From a virus: DNA of 20,281 nucleotides. Shown in pieces: positions 2,982 through 3,839 of this stretch. Made by a program: the position numbers and the translations under genes. The stretch is taken from positions 1-20,281 of IMG/VR virus record IMGVR_UViG_3300021138_001514; one strand, 5' to 3'. The notes beneath the pieces were generated by a model. That model saw nothing but the letters and a program-made list of their open reading frames with translations, was not told where the DNA came from and made no database searches. Every line of letters starts with the position of its first letter. The stretch's first letter is position 1.

Positions 2982-3642
2982 TCATTTATAGTTAGTTTAT
3001 CCACGTAACGGAGAACTGTCATTCCCACTTTTTTACCAATAAACACAAAGCTTTTGGCTGCATTAGGGAGAGAACGTGACCCTTTCTAATTGACCCTCAC
3101 GGTGTTGATGTGCGACCTGTTTTGATCTGTCCAACACCCTCTCTTTTTTCTTTCAAAAATAAACTCAAAAGGTCTGTCAGGACATGGCAAAGAGAGAGGG
3201 GATTCGTTGGAGCTTCCGGACTCTTAGTCGACGTTGCTGCAGGCTGTCCTGATTGTAAGATGCGACAGATTAAAGCGACCCCCGCATTCAACCACTTCTT
3301 TTTGAGAAGGACAATCCACCCGTCATGAACACGAGGCACTCCCTGTACGTCTGCTCGACTTGAGATATTCACCCATGCGCATACCTTGTTGCCGCATAAG
3401 TGCGTGTTCGACCAGATACCGCTCTAACCGGCTAACTACGGCGAGTATCTACGATGAGGCTCACACTCCGCGGCGACTTTCACGCACGATCGCTCCCAGT
3501 GGCGATACCTAAGTGTACACCATCGGCAAGCTTTAGCCATAACCTTTCCTGAGAAAACTCTCAGGTTGCACAGGCGTGCAAGGTGTGGCAAAAATAGACC
3601 CGAAAAACTGACAGATTCGGGCCTGATTGCCTTACAGGTTCG

Positions 3643-3679
3643 GGTCTAGAAATGGACTAGTTTGAGGTCTAGAAATGGA
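3643..3679. repeat. Direct repeat GGTCTAGAAATGGA
   Basis: The 14-mer occurs at 3643-3656 and again, unchanged, at 3666-3679, a period of 23 bp. The first copy begins inside the 3' arm of the 10-bp stem 3595-3604/3639-3648. Confidence 0.7.
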
Positions 3680-3696
3680 AGAGTAGAGTTCGATAT

Positions 3697-3778
3697 GTGT
3701 CGCAGTACAAAGACAAATGTTTGACACGGGCGGCATTATTGTGTAGTCTTAACTCGTGGGAAAATCCCACACCGACAC
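3697..3778 (+). other. Cloverleaf-like fold at the 3' end of the candidate RNA
   Basis: GTGTCG (3697-3702) pairs with CGACAC (3773-3778). Between them lie weak arms CAAA/TTTG (3708-3711 with 3720-3723) and ACAC/GTGT (3724-3727 with 3741-3744), and a strong arm GTGGGA-AAA-TCCCAC (3756-3770). The last arm resembles a tRNA T stem, but its loop is two nucleotides short and lacks TTCRA, and the acceptor has a mismatch. It is therefore not called a tRNA. A perfect TTGACA at 3721-3726 could alternatively be the -35 of a short RNA promoter. Confidence 0.3.
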
Positions 3779-3795
3779 TCGTAGTACTTATGGCC

Positions 3796-3839
3796 CAGTG
3801 CCCTCAGGTTCCCCCCGACCTGGGGGCATTGTGCTTTTT
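3796..3839 (+). terminator. Strong intrinsic terminator
   Basis: Positions 3796-3809 pair with 3818-3831 in a 14-bp stem with two G.T wobbles around TCCCCCCG, followed by TGCTTTTT. No protein gene lies upstream on this strand for more than 2 kb, which supports a non-coding transcript ending here. Confidence 0.85.

Follow-up and report, generated by a model that had tools for sequence, protein, structure and literature searches.

A probable new family of structured phage RNA with a T-loop hairpin, encoded upstream of the terminase genes on the opposite strand

The window analysed here, meaning the whole stretch of 20,281 bases that forms one IMG/VR record, carries a gene assigned to the PHROG terminase large subunit (5759-7687). 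Near its left end, a DNA polymerase III beta-clamp-like protein (459-1082) adjoins a protein with a match to the C-terminal portion of the ArdA anti-restriction family (1082-1408). A protein of the HslV-like peptidase family is encoded at 3945-4436 and a small lysine-rich protein at 4583-4717 (MPLKKGKSSKVISSNIKTEMAAGKPQKQAVAIALNTAGKTKKKK), the latter of a type common in phages. The HslV-like gene lies directly to the right of the RNA studied here, and in other members, e.g. L034, it is found several kb to the left of it. A preliminary description had placed a large structured phage RNA on the plus strand of the intergenic region, at 3119-3839. The complementary segments on which it relied are present, namely the stem 3121-3131/3264-3274 (11 pairs, one of them G·U on the plus strand), the stem 3130-3148/3189-3211, the hairpins 3548-3565 and 3566-3581 and the stem 3595-3648. 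It had also noted that the region holds no supported gene. In agreement with this, over the conserved core described below all six frames are interrupted in most homologs, any one of them being open in at most 10 of 60; no conserved reading frame was found there, and a protein gene was ruled out.

Using the window terminase as query, we obtained 80 related viral loci. Comparison of the region with these loci by blastn revealed two conserved blocks, at window 3308-3527 and ~2953-3045, whose order upstream of the terminase stays the same while the genes around them move. When all IMG/VR contigs were scanned for a pattern of the core, 53 stretches were returned; the newly found contigs carry the same terminase except L124 and L128, which have none in the stretches examined. 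Another pattern, aimed at the most diverged members, returned only two contigs that were already known. The INPHARED phages gave no instance of the RNA, their one weak match of 29 nt lying outside the core, and the core pattern was likewise absent from the GTDB genome set, in which an aligned-terminase search found no relative. The evidence is comparative throughout and comes from one phage clade. The RNA is carried by a family of bacterial viruses that, judging by some of the IMG sample numbers, are presumably mostly freshwater ones.

A column-pair scan without prior structure recovered the helices. In the unfitted MAFFT alignment of ten sequences, 91.9% of the cells were paired and 18 of the 40 pairs showed two-sided changes, a level reached in none of 500 shuffles. 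The covariance model built from this alignment, R1, matched the window with 182.9 bits (E 2e-55) and gave 63 matches in 89 sources, on the strand opposite to the terminase in all terminase-bearing loci, reaching diverged members such as L051, L065, L068, L072, L019 and L017. One stretch, L058 632-820 on the minus strand, scored only 9.5 bits and is likely a further member, since inspection showed that it has the D hairpin and a helix PL with compensating changes (GCCUGUG/CACAGGC) and that a promoter-like box is present. When aligned to the model, 49 distinct sequences pair in 95.1% of the cells and show two-sided compensatory changes in 33 of the 40 pairs, with 328 compensatory cells compared with 100 ± 10 in shuffles and at most 50 when slid. 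Because this alignment was fitted to the model, the unfitted count is the safer one. Mapped on the terminase-protein tree, the pairs require 143 branch-level double changes, a figure that recombination could inflate. The covariation and the lack of a conserved frame make it practically certain that the intergenic region encodes a conserved, structured, non-coding phage RNA, as had been proposed. The covariation lies in a core on the minus strand, however, and the plus-strand architecture of the preliminary description found no support.

The strand is indicated by the wobble pairs, which had earlier been read in favour of plus. Among the pairs judged by covariation, G·U and A·C stand at 169:24 on the minus strand, and a plus-strand reading turns the minus-strand wobble cells into A·C mismatches. 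The first pair of helix D, for example, switches among G·U, C-G and A-U on the minus strand. RNAalifold gave -64.9 kcal/mol for minus and -52.1 kcal/mol for plus, and the minus strand of the core is G-rich in 15 of 15 loci tested. Folding of the single sequence 3060-3839 yielded z-scores of -4.4 (plus) and -0.2 (minus), and the means in 20 homologs were -0.98 and -1.05; across these homologs, per-sequence z-scores proved uninformative as a guide to the strand. We consider a location of the RNA on the minus strand very highly probable. Instead of extending rightward over 3119-3839, the RNA would start near 3506 and run leftward, with a conserved unit of 183 nt and nine helices at 3508-3326 (Table 1). 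None of the key stems listed before lies inside this unit: those at 3121-3274 fall within the variable 3' tail and others lie upstream of the promoter.

Table 1. Positions in the window of the RNA core, its helices and the neighbouring elements.
Feature	Position	Strand	Details
Conserved RNA core	3326-3508	minus	model R1, 192 positions, 40 pairs
Helix A	3489-3506	minus	3506-3502/3493-3489, 8-nt loop
Helix B, T-loop hairpin	3473-3485	minus	3485-3483/3475-3473, loop UGNRAGU
P3, bulged helix	3438-3471	minus	3471-3468/3441-3438
Helix D	3418-3432	minus	3432-3429/3421-3418, loop GUUAGAG
Long-range helix PL	3327-3409	minus	3409-3403/3333-3327, closes three-way junction
Helix E, within PL	3370-3402	minus	length varies
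Helix F, within PL	3340-3365	minus	has internal loop
Small hairpin immediately 3' of core	3310-3324	minus	
-10 element TACACT	3512-3517	minus	predicted transcription start near 3506
Variable 3' tail	3040-3309	minus	conserved GUGAAUGCGGGG-like stretch near its start
Intrinsic terminator, outside RNA	3796-3831	plus	15 pairs + T run
E2, promoter-like DNA element	2994-3022	minus	ATGACA-17-TAAACT, points leftward
Conserved sequence downstream of E2	2953-2975	minus	family consensus CCTCGGCACACACCCGGTCA

Covariation is spread over the whole core. The second pair of helix A occurs as six pair types (CG16 UG15 GU9 UA4 GC3 AU2), and the middle pair of hairpin B is divided between GC25 and CG23, while the loop U and A of this hairpin, corresponding to tRNA positions 54 and 58, are invariant (48/48). 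P3 continues across a 2-nt bulge with further pairs (AGU/ACU, 3467-3465/3446-3444) towards a variable tip and shows two-sided changes in 5 of its 7 pairs. Three of the four pairs of helix D change on both sides, and its 7-nt loop is identical in 45 of 46 sequences. PL is paired in 100% of the cells with two-sided changes in 7/7 pairs, examples being GAACACG/CGUGUUC, GGCGCA/UGCGCC and UGUCGCG/CGCGACA. Of the two helices that it encloses, E is paired in 82% of the cells (two-sided changes in 4/4 pairs) and F in 82-90% (6/7 pairs). The small hairpin that follows has stems such as GAC/GUC and AAC/GUU, and CCACCUC/GAGGUGG in distant members. Because hairpin B fits the T-loop motif and the loop of D is almost invariant, the sequences suggest a compact tertiary domain. 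Energy folding of the window favours another structure (-141.6 vs -124.9 kcal/mol when constrained), and therefore cofactors or tertiary contacts would be needed.

Upstream of the core, a TAnnnT motif ends 3-5 nt before it in 32 of 37 homologs, judged by sequence match only. In several of them, the best cases, TTGACA is located 16 nt upstream of this -10 element; the window's own -35 (ATGGCT, 3540-3535) is weak. Given the fixed distance of TAnnnT, transcription is expected to begin at the foot of helix A. Upstream of the promoter, at window 3548-3581 and equivalent places, there are inverted repeats centred on A/T-rich sequence; their arms vary between relatives (CTGAGAAAACTCTCAG, TGTGAAAACATTCACA, GTAGGATTTTCCTAC), the motif GTTACG is frequent near them, and they are perhaps operators. 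At the other end, six relatives (L023, L030, L031, L072, L073, L117) have a terminator-like hairpin followed by a U run ~180-240 nt past the core; none of the same kind was detected on the minus strand of the window. The strong plus-strand terminator of the preliminary description does exist, but it lies outside the RNA, upstream of its promoter, and 20 of 37 homologs likewise have plus-strand terminators on the right-hand side of the RNA.

The second conserved block contains the element E2, which is found roughly 300-590 nt from the core start, an approximate range in which a default limit was used for L008 and L065 and an earlier box was taken for L035. The E2 region (window 2953-3045) shows a strongly conserved ATGACAGTT at a fixed 17-nt spacing to TA, and the spacer itself is strongly conserved. 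Most simply, E2 would be a second leftward promoter or a regulator site of this phage family. Other readings of E2 were rejected. Against its being a 3' part of the RNA, no helix in it covaries, and the 8 nt by which it can pair with the core in the window (TGACGGGT/ACCCGTCA) do not stay complementary in relatives. Against a short coding region, neither frames nor stops looked conserved by eye. A tmRNA-like sequence on the plus strand is supported by neither ARAGORN nor Rfam.

All 20 of the longer records have a single copy of the RNA per phage, always upstream of the terminase genes and on the opposite strand, at a distance that varies from about 0.9 to 3.7 kb. A contig of 64,966 bases (IMGVR_UViG_3300025400_000015, L033 + L037) bears two related terminases and two RNA copies and represents either a tandem of two phages or two phages joined during assembly. 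Most contigs without an R1 match end before the position of the RNA. An exception is L004, in which the RNA is missing at this place and whose terminase is 94% identical to that of the window. There, a tRNA-Met gene (342-415, plus) and a DNA-methylase-like frame replace the core, and the replacement abuts a 14-nt remnant of P3 (331-344, equal to window 3439-3452). From this replacement it follows that the RNA can be lost or replaced; a copy elsewhere in the L004 genome is possible. To the left of the RNA, i.e. downstream, the minus-strand genes are not common to the members but differ or are absent, and in L053, L069, L113 and L121 the large ORFs that come next have the opposite orientation (plus).

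We favour, as the probable explanation, a new family of phage RNAs with a T-loop hairpin that are transcribed on their own and act in trans, in a molecular role that we infer. Transcription would proceed leftward on the minus strand from a sigma-70-type promoter with its -10 box at 3517-3512. Since this promoter would place the 5' end at the foot of helix A, the core could form as soon as it is transcribed, folding into helix A, the T-loop hairpin B, the bulged P3, the D hairpin and the three-way junction closed by PL around E and F; the small hairpin and the variable tail would follow. T-loops usually pack against other loops, and B and D may do so through their conserved loops. The resulting compact domain would act in trans, holding a host or phage protein or another RNA during infection. 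That the RNA is a separate transcript appears likely. Action in trans is favoured because the downstream gene is not common to the members, and we judge it reasonably probable. More tentatively, the RNA might form a new trans-acting class kept by this phage lineage, in which a 5' domain with a T-loop, its arms ordered differently from those of tRNA by permutation, binds a host factor during infection.

Of the alternatives, a cis-acting leader survives best, although it is unlikely. The RNA would then be the 5' end of a leftward transcript and control downstream genes through attenuation or put- or EAR-like antitermination, consistent with its start at a promoter, the minus-strand genes to its left in many loci and the lack of a detected terminator-like hairpin in the window. 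The members have no leftward gene in common, and in several loci the ORFs that come next are on the plus strand, so that a leader of one gene does not fit; in addition, the terminator-like hairpins of the six relatives come before E2, which itself resembles a second leftward promoter. Less probable still is a packaging RNA that serves as a component of the terminase/portal motor in the manner of the phi29 prohead RNA. Its constant position upstream of the terminase genes fits this idea, but the distance to the terminase is variable, no Rfam family matches, and in L004 the RNA is missing at this place although the terminase is 94% identical to that of the window. It is very improbable that the element primes replication as an RNA or forms a structure in single-stranded DNA at an origin: it is structured and non-coding, often sits at a divergent transcription region and lies beside E2, but no consistent GC-skew switch was seen at the RNA in 15 loci, on which ground an origin was rejected, and no sites for origin proteins were identified. 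Hardly credible, finally, is the large plus-strand RNA ending at 3796-3831 that was first proposed, which the plus-strand z-score of 3060-3839 and the terminator had favoured and which we rejected, as the wobble asymmetry and the promoter indicate minus and the plus-strand stability is not common to the homologs.

To our knowledge, few large structured phage RNAs have been described, and what the best studied of them, GOLLD and ROOL, do is still open. The RNA described here adds another phage RNA family, unrelated to these two by the Rfam models. With its strong covariation, an assigned strand, a promoter and a covariance model, it can be tested directly in strand-specific metatranscriptomes from these waters. 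The case also shows that single-sequence folding can choose the wrong strand and the wrong stems.

The suggestion that the RNA might belong to GOLLD or ROOL or to a new class was upheld in its second part, as it falls outside all Rfam 15 classes. Rfam 15 gave no match in the window at the gathering score, none at E up to 10 in window 2900-3945 and nine related loci, and none at E up to 1 in seven more loci; the models of GOLLD, ROOL, OLE, HEARO and prohead RNA were all without a match in these searches. By the Rfam 15 models it is a new family, and an earlier description outside Rfam is possible, the literature searched being that under open licence. ARAGORN found no tRNA or tmRNA on either strand of the window, and tRNA genes are absent from the window and from 45 of 47 other loci scanned. 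GOLLD, by comparison, often lies close to tRNA genes, and it assembles into a multimeric RNA cage. Hairpin B, with its closing G-C and invariant U and A (54, 58), is like the T-loop modules of the tRNA elbow, and hairpin D resembles GCCGGTTAGAGC of tRNA D-arms. The RNA departs from tRNA in that D has a covarying stem unlike that of a D-arm, the arms come in a permuted order and there is no CCA or anticodon arm; the conflict between the stem of D and a D-arm ruled out a permuted tRNA. With the phi29 prohead RNA (pRNA), it shares being a structured phage RNA near packaging genes, and it differs in having no Rfam match, a varying distance to the terminase and an absence from its place in L004. 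GOLLD and ROOL are nearest in kind, and homology to them was not detected with the Rfam models. ROOL is a phage-encoded structured RNA of open function (PMC12286853); ours is likewise structured and encoded by a phage, but lacks an Rfam match to it and lies outside a tRNA island. GOLLD is a large structured RNA of phages and prophages, also of open function, with a conserved and a less conserved region (PMC12286853). The new RNA shares this division, but it has no Rfam match, has no adjacent tRNA genes in the window or nearly all relatives, is shorter (roughly 300-590 nt from the core start to E2) and carries its conserved domain at the 5' end, whereas that of GOLLD is in the 3' region.
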